Assembly: GCA_017994695.1 (NCBI GenBank)
Contig: JAGOKF010000013.1
Location: 1 to 64,000 of the forward strand
Direction: 5' to 3'
Length of the DNA: 64,000 nt
Source of the DNA: Myxococcota bacterium
Lineage (GTDB): Bacteria > Myxococcota_A > UBA9042 > DTJE01
The notes beneath the pieces are model-generated. The model searched no databases, was not told the origin of the DNA, and saw nothing but the letters and a program-made list of their open reading frames with translations. Positions 2-5,391 of this stretch are shown here, in pieces; position 1 is the stretch's first letter; each line of letters starts with the position of its first letter. The position numbers and the translations under genes are program-made.

Positions 2-517
2 CCCGAGGCCCCGCCCTCCCGGGCCTGGTGGAAACTGGAGGAGGCCCTGCTGTGCACCGGCCTGCATCCCCGGCCCGGGGAGAAGGCCGTGGACATCGGC
101 TGCTCGCCGGGAGGGGCGTCCCTGGCCCTGCTGCAACGGGGCCTCCTGGTCTGGGGCGTGGACCCGACGCCCGTCGATCCCTCCCTGTTCCGGCGGCCGG
201 GTCCCGGGCGCTTCACCCACCTCCAGAGGCCGGTCCAGGCAGTCCACCCCGGGGACCTCCCCCGGGATCTCCAGTGGATGGTGGTGGACATCAACGAGGG
301 CCCCGACCGGGTCCTGCCGGAGGTCCGGCGACTGGTCCGGGGACAACGCCTCCGGGGCCTGCTGGTCACCGTGAAGGCGAACCGCCTGGAGGTGGCCGAC
401 CGGATCCCGGACATCGAGGCCGCCCTGCGGGACCTGGGCTTCCGGGAGGTGCGCCTGTTCCAGGGATACCACCATCACCGGGAGTTCCTGGCGGCGGCCT
501 GGGGTCAGCGGGGATAG
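2..517 (+). CDS. RlmM-like 23S rRNA 2'-O-methyltransferase, C-terminal part (5' truncated by window edge)
   Basis: The reading frame is open from base 2, so the gene begins before the window. The visible part starts with PSRAWWKLEEALL, followed by the SAM-binding loop DIGCSPGGAS. It then shows VVDINEGP, LVTVKAN and a terminal YHHHREFLAA. This order fits the K-D-K-E catalytic tetrad of RrmJ/RlmM-type (FtsJ-like) ribose methyltransferases: Lys in SRAWWK, Asp in VVDIN, Lys in TVKAN and Glu in HREF. RlmM methylates the 2'-OH of a cytidine in 23S rRNA. The stop codon lies 13 bases inside the 3' end of the convergent nuclease gene. The N-terminal THUMP-like part, which would separate RlmM from other FtsJ-type enzymes, is outside the window, so the family is firm and the exact substrate is not. 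Confidence 0.75.
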   Translation, partial: PEAPPSRAWWKLEEALLCTGLHPRPGEKAVDIGCSPGGASLALLQRGLLVWGVDPTPVDPSLFRRPGPGRFTHLQRPVQAVHPGDLPRDLQWMVVDINEGPDRVLPEVRRLVRGQRLRGLLVTVKANRLEVADRIPDIEAALRDLGFREVRLFQGYHHHREFLAAAWGQRG

Positions 518-1359
518 ACCTTCCGGTGCTTCGGGTCGTACTCGACCCGGTCCACCACCTCTCCCGTCGGGTCCATCAGCGTCGCCACGTCCCCCCGGTT
601 CGACCACATGGGCCGGGCCTGGCGCCAGAAGAGCCGGATGGGCTGGTCCGGGGAGGTCTGGTCGTCCCCGGACCCGCTGGCCAGCGTGACGGTGTGGCCA
701 CCGGGGACCACCACGGGCCCGAAGACGTACCGGTCCCCGTGCTCGTTGCTGACGATCCAGCCCTCGAGGGACCGCGGCTCGGCTCGCAGGTTCGCGATCC
801 GCAGGTACTCGGCGTTCAGGTCCGCCGAGTCGTCGCCGATGGGATTCGCGTGGAACGACGTGATGTGGAAGTCGCCCCGGTACCGGTCCGTGGCCCAGAT
901 GCCGACCCGCCGGGCCCGGGCCCGTTCCTGGACCTCCAGCAGCCTGGCGGCCTCCTCCCGGTCCACGGGGGGGATCAGGAAGACGTGGGCGAGCCCGGCC
1001 TCCACCAGGGCCGATGCCAGGCTCCGGTCCCCCACGCGGATGTCCGTGACCAGGCGCCCGTAGCGGTCCTTCCGGTCCTCCCGGACCCGCACGTCCTTGC
1101 GCCCGACCATCCCCAGGGCGAACTCCCGGGCCTCCAGCCCCAGGGGCTCGTCGATCTCGGGACAGTTGACCCCGCCCAGGCGGACCCGCTGCCGCCCGGC
1201 CAGCACCACCGTGTCCCCGTCCACCACCCGCTCGACGAAGGCCGGGACATAGGGATCCCCGGAGGCCTCCCCGGGGACCCGGGGCGCGGCGCAGGCGCAA
1301 AGCAGGGCCATCCCCAGCACGCCCGCCGCGAAATCCAGGATCCGGGACCTCCGCCCCAT
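505..1359 (-). CDS. Lipoprotein with thermonuclease (SNase) domain and C-terminal lamin-tail domain
   Basis: This is a 284-residue protein. Its hydrophobic N-terminus ends in a cysteine-rich stretch (LLCACA, lipidation probably at Cys23), so it is probably a membrane-anchored periplasmic or outer-membrane lipoprotein. Residues about 41-157 form a staphylococcal-nuclease fold: VVDGDTVVL, then RVRLGGVNCPEID, which supplies the Arg60/Glu68 equivalents, and DRYGR, whose Arg102 corresponds to the third catalytic Arg. Residues about 165-284 look like a lamin-tail (LTD) domain, with EYLRIANLRAEPRSLEGW and a late VDRVEYDP strand. SNase-LTD pairs are known in bacteria and are thought to be secreted nucleases. 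The gene stands alone and overlaps the end of the upstream methyltransferase tail to tail. The next gene upstream on the same strand ends 25 bases away, so it could be cotranscribed with the cytochrome operon. Confidence 0.85.
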   Translation of the reverse strand: MGRRSRILDFAAGVLGMALLCACAAPRVPGEASGDPYVPAFVERVVDGDTVVLAGRQRVRLGGVNCPEIDEPLGLEAREFALGMVGRKDVRVREDRKDRYGRLVTDIRVGDRSLASALVEAGLAHVFLIPPVDREEAARLLEVQERARARRVGIWATDRYRGDFHITSFHANPIGDDSADLNAEYLRIANLRAEPRSLEGWIVSNEHGDRYVFGPVVVPGGHTVTLASGSGDDQTSPDQPIRLFWRQARPMWSNRGDVATLMDPTGEVVDRVEYDPKHRKVYPR

Positions 1360-1384: not shown

Positions 1385-2752
1385 TCAGGCCCCGTGGCGC
1401 TTCCGGGTGTTGCGGACCAGGTGGGCCACGATGTAGGACAGGAAGAACCCCATCATGCCCGCCAGCGCCACGATGTAGATCCGCTCCACCAGCCCCGGCA
1501 GCCAGTGCCGCTCCCGGGCCAGGGCCGCGTGGATGCGCCCGGTCTGGATCGGCCGGGAGACGTCCTCGATACGATGGCACTTCCCGCAGGTCTTCGGGAG
1601 GTTGTCCGGGTGGGTCGAGGCCTTCGGGTCCGTGTGGGCCCGGATGTCGTGGGCCTCGTGGCACGATGCGCAGTTGGCCACCCGGGTGTCCCCCAGTCTC
1701 GCCGAGGCCCCGTGGTAGGACTCCAGATAGGTGGATTCCCGGGCCTCGGGGATGCCGTAGCGGTTCAGCATCGCCGCCTGGGCATGGCACTTGAGGCAGG
1801 TCGCCGCGACCTTCGAGGCGTAGGTCGAGGACTCGGCCCGGTAGTGGGACTGGATCGTGTGGGACCGGTGGCAGTCGGTGCAGACCGGGACGTCCAGGTT
1901 CCCCTCCTCCAGGGGCTTGCCGTGGACGCTCTGGCGATAGAGGTCCAGCACGCCCTGGTGGCACTTCCCGCAGGTCCCGGGCACCCGGGCCCGGGCGATT
2001 CGGTTGCGCTCCGAGTCCCGTCCGTGCTCGATGTCGTGGAACCCGTGGCAGTCGCTGCACGTCGCCGACACCAGCAGGCCCGACCGGCTGATGGCCAGGC
2101 CGTGCACGCTGCCGAAGTAGTCCTTCACGGCCTGCACGGACTCCGGCGGCAGGCCCAGGTCGGTCCGGGTGTGGCACTTCGCGCAGGTCTCGGCCTGGGC
2201 CAGGCGGTGGACCGTGGACCGGGGGTCTTCGGGCCGCCGGATGTCGTGCCCCCCGTGGCAGTCGGAACAGGTCGCGGCCTGCTCGGCCCGGGACTGCCCG
2301 TGCCAGGACTCCTGGAAGACCTTCCACTCCCGGTCATGGCAGGCGCCGCAGCGCGTGGCGATGCGGCGATGACGGCCGTGATTGCCCTGGCTGGAGGTGA
2401 CGTCGTGGGTCCCGTGGCAGTCGATGCAGGAGGGACCGTCGTCGCCGGCCTCGCCGTGAACGCTGGCCTTCAGGGCCTCCGGCGCCTGCTGGTGGCACCG
2501 CACGCAGTCCACCTTCGGGGGCTTCGGGTGCTCGTCGTCGGCGACCTCCACGTCGCCGTGGCACGCCACGCAGGGGCCGTTCCCGCTCCCGCCTCCCAGG
2601 CGCAGGTGGGGCGACTGCCGGAATCCCTCGTCCGACGCCACCTCCGAGTGGCAGTCCAGGCAGGGCGCCTCCGCCCGGGCCCCGGGCAGAAAGGCGATCC
2701 AGGCGACGAGGAAGGCGATTCCCTGGAAACCGATCCGGTGCCGCCCTTTCAT
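1385..2752 (-). CDS. Thirteen-haem c-type cytochrome with C-terminal membrane anchor
   Basis: The 455-residue product begins with a signal sequence (FQGIAFLVAWIAFLPGARA). It then carries thirteen CxxCH haem-binding motifs, beginning CLDCH, CVACH and CVRCH and ending CASCH, CGKCH. Many are followed by H(D/T)I segments, and SVHG/SWHG/SYHG segments recur between motifs and may supply distal His ligands. A single hydrophobic segment (IYIVALAGMMGFFLSYIVAHLV) followed by basic residues ends the protein, so it is probably anchored in the inner membrane and faces the periplasm. It is the last gene of the kinase / receiver-cytochrome b operon and overlaps that gene by four bases (ATGA), which couples their translation. 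Functionally it is the obvious electron partner of the membrane cytochrome b encoded just upstream. The terminal acceptor cannot be read from the sequence. Confidence 0.9.
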   Translation of the reverse strand: MKGRHRIGFQGIAFLVAWIAFLPGARAEAPCLDCHSEVASDEGFRQSPHLRLGGGSGNGPCVACHGDVEVADDEHPKPPKVDCVRCHQQAPEALKASVHGEAGDDGPSCIDCHGTHDVTSSQGNHGRHRRIATRCGACHDREWKVFQESWHGQSRAEQAATCSDCHGGHDIRRPEDPRSTVHRLAQAETCAKCHTRTDLGLPPESVQAVKDYFGSVHGLAISRSGLLVSATCSDCHGFHDIEHGRDSERNRIARARVPGTCGKCHQGVLDLYRQSVHGKPLEEGNLDVPVCTDCHRSHTIQSHYRAESSTYASKVAATCLKCHAQAAMLNRYGIPEARESTYLESYHGASARLGDTRVANCASCHEAHDIRAHTDPKASTHPDNLPKTCGKCHRIEDVSRPIQTGRIHAALARERHWLPGLVERIYIVALAGMMGFFLSYIVAHLVRNTRKRHGA

Positions 2753-3852
2753 GACCGCACCTCCTCGCGGCCCTCGGCCACGGCCGGCCTTCCCGTCAGG
2801 GCCTCGTACCACAGCGGGTGCTCCTCGATCATCTCCTCCCGGCCGATGCGCCCCGTCAGCCAGACCCGGCTCATCGGGAACACCCCGGGTCGCCAGTGGA
2901 CGTTGTACATGTGCCAGATGGCGATGGTCAGGATGGCCAGGATGGCCTCGTACCGGTGGACCACCTTGGCCAGGTCCACCACCCAGAGGGGAGCCACCCG
3001 GAGCACCGCGTCGGTGAACCACAGCACCAGTCCGCTGAGGACCATCACCAGCGTCCCCCAGACCACCCCGAAGTACTCGAACTTCTCGAAGAAGGTGTAC
3101 TGGCCGGCCCGGGGCTTCTCCCGGCGCAGCCCGAAGGTGAAGAGGATGTTCCCCCAGGCCTCCTTCAGGTCCCCGGGGATCCGGGGCAGGATGGCCCGGA
3201 AGTTCCGGTTCCCGTCCTCGGTGTAGAGGATGTAGCCCACGTGGTAGATGCTGAGGCCCATCAGGGCCACGGCGGCGATGCGGTGCATCAGGCCCCGGAG
3301 GTAGGAGGAGTCCTCGAAGAAGAACACCCCCCGGAAGGTGTCGGGGAAGAAGAGGGGCACCCCGGTCAGGGCCAGCAGCGTGAAGGTCACCACCATCACG
3401 AAATGCTGCACCACCACGGGCCGGGTGAACCGGAGGAAGCCGCGACGCTCCTCTGCCGCCCGGATCCGCTCCTCGCGGATGCCGGCCAGGCGCTCCACGA
3501 AGGCCCGCAGTTCCTCGGGCCCGAAGGGCTTTTCGATGTAGTCCAGCGCCCCCAGTTTCATCGCGTCCACCGCCGATTCCACCGAGGCGTAGCCCGTCAT
3601 CATCGCGAAGTCCGCGTCGGGGCGCAGTCGGCGGCCCTGCTCCAGCACCTCGAGCCCGCCCATCCCCGGCATCTTGAGGTCCGTGAAGACCAGGTCGAAG
3701 GTCTCCTCCCGGAGCCTCTCGAGCCCCGCCTCCCCGGAGGGGGCCACCGCCACGTCCCACCGGTCCGGTTCCCCCTCGAAGACCTTCCGGAAACTCTCCC
3801 GGATGACCTCCTCGTCGTCGATCACCAGCAGGCGCCTGCGCATCCTGGACAT
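2749..3852 (-). CDS. Response-regulator receiver domain fused to a b-type membrane cytochrome
   Basis: Residues 1-125 are a complete CheY-like receiver: acidic pair Asp12/Asp13, phospho-acceptor Asp58 in VFTDLKMPG, Thr86 in MMTGYAS and Lys108 in YIEKPFG. After a short charged linker (RAAEERR), residues about 140-330 form a multi-pass membrane cytochrome b of the b561 / formate-dehydrogenase-gamma kind. Candidate haem ligands are H150, H190, H204, H299 and H314/H319 (AIWHMYNVH). The frame is open throughout, with no sign of a frameshift, so this is a true fusion of 367 residues. Receivers normally drive DNA-binding or enzymatic outputs; here the output is an electron-transfer module. The cognate kinase ends 18 bases upstream and the 13-haem cytochrome starts inside the stop codon. 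I infer that phosphorylation gates electron flow or complex assembly. Confidence 0.85.
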   Translation of the reverse strand: MSRMRRRLLVIDDEEVIRESFRKVFEGEPDRWDVAVAPSGEAGLERLREETFDLVFTDLKMPGMGGLEVLEQGRRLRPDADFAMMTGYASVESAVDAMKLGALDYIEKPFGPEELRAFVERLAGIREERIRAAEERRGFLRFTRPVVVQHFVMVVTFTLLALTGVPLFFPDTFRGVFFFEDSSYLRGLMHRIAAVALMGLSIYHVGYILYTEDGNRNFRAILPRIPGDLKEAWGNILFTFGLRREKPRAGQYTFFEKFEYFGVVWGTLVMVLSGLVLWFTDAVLRVAPLWVVDLAKVVHRYEAILAILTIAIWHMYNVHWRPGVFPMSRVWLTGRIGREEMIEEHPLWYEALTGRPAVAEGREEVRS

Positions 3853-3870: not shown

Positions 3871-5391
3871 TCAGGAACCCCTCGAACCCTCGTTGGAATC
3901 CCCATCCAGTGGCAGCGACACCCGGAAGGTCGTTCCCTTCCCCCGGTGGGATTCCACGTCGATCTGGCCGCCGTGATCCGTGACGATGCCCCAGGAAATG
4001 GACAGTCCCAGGCCCGTTCCCTTGCCCTCCTTCGTGGTGAAGAAGGGCTCGAACAGGTGGGGCAGGTCCTCGGACCGGATGCCCGTGCCGGTGTCCGCGA
4101 CCTCGATCCAGGCCGTCCGGCCGTCTGCGGACACCCCCTTCCGCACCCGGAGCCGCCCTCCCCCGGGCATCGCGTCCAGGGCGTTCACCATCAGGTTCAC
4201 GAGCACCTGCTGCATCCGGGAGACGTCCAGCCGCATCCCGGGCAGTTCCGGGCCCTCCACCGACAGTTCCACCCCCTGCTTCAGGGCGATGTGGCGGATC
4301 ATCTCCAGGGCCTGTCCCAGGGGGACGTCCAGGGAGGCCCGGGACCAGTTCGGTTTCGCCTGCCGGGCGAAATCCAGCAGCCCCTTGACGATTTCCCGGG
4401 CCCGGGCCGCCTCGCGGTACAGGGTCTCCAGGTCGCCCCGCCGGGGATCCTGGGCGTCCATCCCCTCCTTCAGGTTCCCGGCGATCAGCATCACCCCGGT
4501 CAGGGGGTTGTTGATCTCGTGGGCGATCCCGGCGGCCAGGCGTCCCACGACCCCCAGGCGTTCCGTCTGTAGCAGCCGTCCCCGGGTCTCCTTCAGGCGC
4601 GCCGTCATCTCGTTGAAGGCCCGGGCGACCTCCCCCAGTTCGGTGTCCCCCAGGTCCGCCACCCGGGCGTCCAGGTTCCCCGAGGTGACCTGCTGGATGC
4701 CCCGCACCAGCCGCCGGACCGGCCGGGTCACCAGTGCCATCAGCAGCAGCAGCACGACCGCGGACAGCCCCGCCAGCAGCGCCAGCGCCCCGATCAGGAC
4801 GCCCTCCCGGAAGCGGCCCATCGCCGCTTCCATCCGCCGCAGCGACAGGCTCAGGTCCACGACCCCGAGGACCTTCTGGCTCGGGGGATGGACGTGGCAG
4901 GGGGCCGAGGAGCAGTCCGGGGCATTGTACAGCGGCTCCACCAGCGTGAAGACCCGGTGGCCCCGGGCGTCCCGGTAGGTGGTCGCCCGGTCCTCCCGGG
5001 CCAGGGAGTCCAGCGGCCGTTTCCCCGCGTGACATCCCCGGCAGGCATCGTCGGTGGTGGGCACCTTCCGCCCGGCCTCCCCGGGGTCCGAACTGAAGGC
5101 GATGACGCCGTCCTTGTTGAAGATGCGGAAACTGGAGAGGTCCTCCCCGGTGGCCAGGTCCCGCACCGCGGCCCCGATGGACTCGCGGTCGTTGCGGAGC
5201 ATCGCGTGGCGGAGGCTCCGGACCAGCAGGTCCGACAGGCGATGGCCCCCCTCGTACACCTCCTCCAGCACCTGCCGTTCCATGTGCCGCACGGCGAGGT
5301 ACGACCCGACCCCGAGTCCCAGGGCCAGGGCGATCGCCACGGCCGTCATCACCCGGAAACCGATCCGTCTCCGCAAAGGTTCCTGCCCCAT
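3871..5391 (-). CDS. Sensor histidine kinase with periplasmic c-haem sensor domain
   Basis: The 506-residue protein starts at ATG 5391; the frame stays open further upstream but only as a shadow of the isomerase gene. A first membrane helix spans about residues 11-33 and a second about 199-222. Between them is a periplasmic domain with a CRGCH haem motif (C117/C120/H121) and a CSSAPCH motif (C160/C165/H166, CX4CH), plus FNKDGVIAFSS and the LGVVDLSLSL strand typical of haem-containing sensors in multihaem-cytochrome bacteria. A HAMP domain follows (about 219-271). The HisKA box is at AAGIAHEINNPLTG (phospho-acceptor H291), and an ATPase domain shows NLMVNALDAM, DTGTGI and GKGTGLGL. It probably senses redox potential, oxygen or NO and phosphorylates the receiver domain of the next gene. 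Confidence 0.92.
   Translation of the reverse strand: MGQEPLRRRIGFRVMTAVAIALALGLGVGSYLAVRHMERQVLEEVYEGGHRLSDLLVRSLRHAMLRNDRESIGAAVRDLATGEDLSSFRIFNKDGVIAFSSDPGEAGRKVPTTDDACRGCHAGKRPLDSLAREDRATTYRDARGHRVFTLVEPLYNAPDCSSAPCHVHPPSQKVLGVVDLSLSLRRMEAAMGRFREGVLIGALALLAGLSAVVLLLLMALVTRPVRRLVRGIQQVTSGNLDARVADLGDTELGEVARAFNEMTARLKETRGRLLQTERLGVVGRLAAGIAHEINNPLTGVMLIAGNLKEGMDAQDPRRGDLETLYREAARAREIVKGLLDFARQAKPNWSRASLDVPLGQALEMIRHIALKQGVELSVEGPELPGMRLDVSRMQQVLVNLMVNALDAMPGGGRLRVRKGVSADGRTAWIEVADTGTGIRSEDLPHLFEPFFTTKEGKGTGLGLSISWGIVTDHGGQIDVESHRGKGTTFRVSLPLDGDSNEGSRGS

Follow-up and report, generated by a model that had tools for sequence, protein, structure and literature searches.

A single open reading frame in the window (the whole stretch of Myxococcota DNA analysed here, 64,000 nucleotides) encodes a response-regulator receiver (REC) fused to a membrane cytochrome b of respiratory type, overlaps the gene of a 13-haem cytochrome c and lies directly downstream of a histidine kinase gene whose predicted sensor carries c-haem motifs. 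The reading that we favour, with somewhat more confidence than doubt, is that a redox-sensing kinase post-translationally gates a CbcL/CbcBA-like menaquinol:cytochrome c oxidoreductase through the receiver on its b subunit. The features concerned are the following:

1385..2752, minus strand: 13-haem cytochrome c with a membrane helix at its C-terminus (13 CxxCH motifs; homology to the c-part of c-b fusions)
2749..2752, minus strand: ATGA overlap of the fusion stop and the cytochrome c start (sequence)
2749..3852, minus strand: REC-cytochrome b fusion gene, 367 amino acids (translation; PF00072 and PF01292; single reading frame in nine genomes)
2788..3438, minus strand: FdnI-type cytochrome b with two predicted haems, residues 139-355 (phmmer, histidine conservation, Foldseek and VIA on the cytochrome b model)
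3442..3519, minus strand: extended alpha-5/linker helix, residues 112-137, continuing to the first transmembrane helix, TM1 (DSSP on the AlphaFold2 model)
3487..3831, minus strand: receiver domain, residues 8-122, with Asp12, Asp13, Asp58 (at 3679-3681), Thr86 and Lys108 (Pfam, residue check, AlphaFold2 model, Foldseek)
3871..5391, minus strand: sensor histidine kinase (HAMP, HisKA, HATPase), 506 amino acids as called (Pfam, gene call, family orthologues in the same operon)
4777..5304, minus strand: sensor region of the kinase with CxxCH (5029-5043) and CX4CH (4894-4914) motifs (alignment)

The fusion gene opens with an ATG codon, and Pfam assigned its product a Response_reg domain above the gathering score (residues 9-119, E = 7.6e-27) followed by Ni_hydr_CYTB (PF01292, prokaryotic cytochrome b561; residues 141-316, E = 4.7e-12, 46.5 bits versus a cut-off of 30.1). 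In the confident AlphaFold2 model (mean pLDDT 91.6, pTM 0.78), four transmembrane (TM) helices at residues 144-168, 183-210, 254-278 and 289-320 follow a complete (beta-alpha)5 receiver, and Foldseek with the full model reached a TMt of 0.92 to the receiver 3crn. The initial annotation had described an intact receiver with Asp58, Thr86 and Lys108 that runs in frame into a multi-helix cytochrome b with conserved histidines, and this anatomy was borne out: the three residues are as claimed and, together with Asp12 and Asp13, make up the DD, D, T/S and K pocket of a response regulator within a receiver fold, while the cytochrome has four TM helices and keeps four histidines. The passage from alpha-5 to TM1 is geometrically continuous in the model, which represents one chain and is blind to phosphorylation-dependent change. 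Neither Pfam nor the model placed an AAA sigma-54 or HTH output after the receiver, where only cytochrome b follows, and without a DNA-binding part the output of the fusion protein itself is non-transcriptional. Both halves are under purifying selection, with dN/dS of about 0.09 for the receiver and about 0.08 for the cytochrome between the window's genome (G000) and G001.

Using phmmer, we matched the cytochrome b part to FdnI, the cytochrome b556 of E. coli formate dehydrogenase-N (1KQF chain C, E = 1.3e-6). Receivers took up the Foldseek list obtained for the whole protein, so the cytochrome was folded separately; its best PDB match was 1KQF_C (Foldseek E = 1.1e-6, TM 0.74/0.78), and VIA superposed the two with a Z of 17.0 and an rmsd of 2.9 over 196 residues. 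His150, His190, His299 and His314 align with His18, His57, His155 and His169 of FdnI, which hold its two haems, and all four are invariant across the 31 relatives aligned. With four TM helices and four haem-ligand histidines, the protein belongs to the PF01292/FdnI type, and these ligand residues suggest that it would bind two haems b and react with quinone. Assignment as a formate dehydrogenase gamma subunit was rejected on the score against the equivalog TIGR01583 (56.9 bits versus a cut-off of 115.85). The N-terminus of FdnI is cytoplasmic and its quinone pocket lies close to the cytoplasmic-side haem, of which His18 is a ligand. The same topology would put the receiver in the cytoplasm, where a receiver must be, and by this analogy about a dozen residues away from a haem-ligand position in a helix.

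The 13-haem cytochrome c (455 amino acids) is homologous, helix included, to the N-terminal c-part of the CbcL-like c-b fusions of the phylum, and its genome contains no other match to it. This homology gives the locus the appearance of a CbcL-type module divided between two chains, of which b has gained a receiver. Through the ATGA coupling, the predicted di-haem b is linked by operon to a membrane-anchored multihaem c, as expected of a CbcL/CbcBA-like system; the cytochrome c is the likely electron partner of the fusion, and by analogy the pair may oxidize menaquinol and feed periplasmic cytochromes. Between the kinase and REC-cytochrome b, the operon of genus g5 contains a 14-haem cytochrome as well as an 8-haem c-b fusion. 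Large operons at L074:12969-19780 and L040:219-8522 consist of a kinase, an 8-haem c-b fusion, a 14-haem cytochrome and REC-cytochrome b, and the one at L040 continues into a 13-haem cytochrome c. In genus g4, a PAS sigma-54 regulator containing a Cys-rich stretch is divergent from the REC-cytochrome b operon (L076:3960-5210 and L080:2495-3805) and adjoins an 8-haem cytochrome. Directly downstream of cytochrome c in the window (505-1359) lies a gene for a protein with staphylococcal-nuclease and lamin-tail domains, and a similar gene follows in G001.

The fusion occurs in nine of the 13 genomes of its uncultured Myxococcota family, always with both domains in one frame and across five genera; nothing in the remaining four matches the cytochrome. 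All fused cytochromes fall into one clade (support 100/100), and among 377 Myxococcota genomes none of the other relatives of this cytochrome bears a receiver; they carry an N-terminal multihaem cytochrome c instead or occur unfused. A scan of a genome collection beyond the phylum, sensitive to close relatives only, returned five family loci and one unrelated receiver. Every source genome is a draft, which could favour an assembly or annotation artefact, and the initial annotation had named consistently split orthologues as the mark of an assembly error near residue 130. No split version exists in the 13 family genomes, however, and the identical junction in nine assemblies made independently, from five genera, together with the single clade, led us to discard an artefact, the probability of which we regard as negligible.

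The histidine kinase that the initial annotation had placed next to the fusion lies directly upstream of it. By its motifs and domains it is a membrane c-haem sensor kinase, with extracytoplasmic c-haem motifs joined to HAMP-HisKA-HATPase; the CxxCH and CX4CH motifs are invariant in seven aligned relatives, and for the sensor region we obtained no Pfam hit and found no sequence relative in the PDB. Judged from the motifs, the sensor haem would be covalently bound and redox-active. The kinase probably reads redox state, and the cell may therefore use phosphorylation, in place of a change in gene expression, to switch a respiratory pathway. It is found in the same operon in G000, G001, G004, G005, G006 and G012, and in every orthologue with an assembled flank, G010 excepted, an arrangement suggesting that it may be the cognate phosphodonor of the fusion receiver.

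Relatives of this sensor are present in 34 of the 377 Myxococcota genomes. We examined 17 sensor-kinase loci other than those of the REC-cytochrome b operon, of which 13 lie beside a receiver-AAA sigma-54 regulator and two beside a fusion of a receiver to a glycine-cleavage-H-like domain (REC-GCV_H, PF01597), while two could not be resolved. Since 13 of the 17 adjoin NtrC-type sigma-54 regulators, the cytochrome occupies the place that a transcriptional output usually takes, and among the loci examined a cytochrome is the partner of such a kinase only in the REC-cytochrome b family, at this locus. One of these 13 pairs belongs to the window's genome itself, where contig C15 (L130:2834-6198) encodes a second di-haem-sensor kinase beside a canonical REC-AAA-HTH sigma-54 regulator. 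A sensor kinase/sigma-54 regulator pair lies near c-b cytochromes in G027 and G134. In a short and weakly supported receiver tree, the fused receiver did not group with the NtrC partners.

The phosphorylation pocket is intact in eight of the nine orthologues, across five genera (the alignment row of G008 is truncated, with D58, T86 and K108 present), and is lost only in G010. There, the receiver carries the substitutions D13P, D58A, T86A and K108R, whereas the cytochrome keeps all haem ligands; identity to G004 is 36% in the receiver and 68% in cytochrome b, and the G010 branch in the receiver tree is 3.33 versus 0.49, marking fast evolution of the receiver. The kinase is missing from the syntenic locus, whose flanking sigma-54 regulator shares 72% identity with the G004 protein, and no match to the di-haem sensor was found anywhere in the G010 assembly, a metagenome-assembled genome that is 68% complete. 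Joint absence of the kinase and loss of the pocket beside a conserved cytochrome is as expected if the receiver depends on the kinase and the cytochrome does not. This natural experiment, in one lineage and one such genome, points to phosphorylation as the probable function of the receiver; the pocket loss shows that phosphorylation mattered and says nothing on gating of electron flow.

Based on these comparisons, we propose the following mechanism. The fusion would be the quinone-reactive di-haem b subunit, with the receiver on its cytoplasmic N-terminus, and the upstream kinase would sense the periplasmic redox state through its di-haem-c sensor and phosphorylate Asp58. The change at Asp58 would pass along the extended alpha-5 helix (112-137) to TM1, which bears His150 (the counterpart of FdnI His18), and this change in TM1 might either open or close quinol oxidation, or alter assembly of the complex, thereby controlling the passage of electrons to the 13-haem cytochrome c that is co-translated with the fusion, and on to a presumed final acceptor. 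The fuller version of this proposal, to which we give roughly even credence, is that a redox sensor in the periplasm gates a respiratory complex directly, via aspartate phosphorylation at the cytoplasmic end of a haem-ligand helix, an arrangement with one origin, in which a receiver was put onto a CbcL-like b where a sigma-54 output is usual. The initial annotation had suggested phosphorylation control of a respiratory branch without transcription. The lack of a DNA-binding part agrees with this, and the conserved pocket, the operon kinase, the G010 case and the replaced sigma-54 output lend it comparative support; the claim has to be narrowed to the fusion itself, however, as the same genome also has the sister sensor kinase with an NtrC-type regulator.

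Receivers commonly act through protein-protein contacts, and the one described here could be a docking or assembly module that, bound by the kinase or a different protein, places the redox sensor by the oxidoreductase or governs assembly or turnover of the complex, leaving the rate of electron transfer unchanged. REC-only regulators have been discussed (PMC5847659), and, consistent with such a role, G010 retains the receiver although its pocket is gone. Against it, the other orthologues preserve the pocket, which has gone where there is no kinase, so that phosphorylation itself seems to matter, an argument that does not separate assembly from gating; we consider docking unlikely, though the strongest of the competing explanations. 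G010 tolerates loss of the pocket, as would be expected if the fusion were a tether, neutral or in decay, that takes no part in signalling, but receiver dN/dS is about 0.09-0.12 in two genera and in most comparisons not above that of the cytochrome, and the intact pocket extends across five genera, which makes this explanation very improbable.

The signal could also run in reverse, with cytochrome b sensing the quinone pool and tuning phospho-acceptance by the receiver as a phosphate sink or kinase feedback, while the kinase serves other targets. Domains attached to REC can be inputs (PMC5847659), and the genome has other NtrC-type regulators that might be served in this way. Yet the operon contains no second receiver gene, the sister kinase has an NtrC-type partner of its own, and the cytochrome is co-translated with a multihaem c partner, as for an enzyme; reversal therefore appears distinctly less probable to us than docking, if less remote than a neutral tether. 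Gating of the oxidoreductase by the kinase remains the reading that we prefer.

Several known systems share parts of this arrangement. FdnI has the same fold, four TM helices and four haem-ligand histidines, but it has no receiver and works with FdnGH rather than with a multihaem cytochrome c. CbcBA has separate multihaem c and b subunits, like the chains found here, and its regulator BccR is a separate sigma-54 regulator, whereas in the present case the receiver sits on the cytochrome itself. Geobacter uses CbcBA, an inner-membrane cytochrome, near -0.2 V (PMC12307469), and its CbcL consists of a di-haem b domain joined to a nonahaem c (PMC9129911). The locus resembles CbcL in combining an inner-membrane di-haem b with a multihaem c (homology was established to the CbcL-like proteins of the phylum, and the likeness to Geobacter CbcL is by description), and it differs in having b and c as separate chains with a receiver on b. 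NtrC-family sigma-54 regulators have a comparable receiver and kinase neighbourhood and elsewhere adjoin the same type of sensor kinase, but the fusion lacks AAA+ and DNA-binding domains and has a membrane cytochrome b as output. Redox sensing by c-haem in the periplasm is known from chemoreceptors of Geobacter, and GSU0582, GSU0935, DcrA and Tll0287 are c-haem sensors in signalling proteins (PMC8396549). Judging by its motifs, the kinase would likewise sense through covalent haem in the periplasm, although it has two motifs (CxxCH and CX4CH) and no sequence match to solved structures.

Response regulators with enzymatic outputs are already known, and the usual view of two-component systems is that their control of respiration is transcriptional. 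A respiratory membrane cytochrome as the output of a response regulator was not found in the literature searched, which yielded nothing relevant on REC-cytochrome b fusions; the main output-domain reviews (Galperin), where a mention in a domain table is possible, lay outside its scope. If the proposed gating is correct, phosphorylation would act on the respiratory enzyme itself and permit fast redox control, with sensor, switch and electron carrier combined in a short operon amenable to expression and testing, and with the G010 orthologue, lacking both kinase and pocket, as a built-in comparison.

REC-GCV_H fusions were found at L132:2700-3491 and L089:2058-3149 (both G310), at L142:5296-6075 (G058) and, as a cut gene, at L088:6397-6937 (G237). 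Those of L132 and L142 immediately follow a kinase that has the di-haem sensor described above. Like the cytochrome fusion, the REC-GCV_H regulators of L132, L142 and L089 combine a receiver with a non-DNA output, but theirs is soluble and lipoyl-carrier-like. This suggests a second non-transcriptional output of di-haem-sensor kinases and perhaps a wider class of such outputs. The L089 gene lies near an iron-sulphur gene and an NrfD-like gene.
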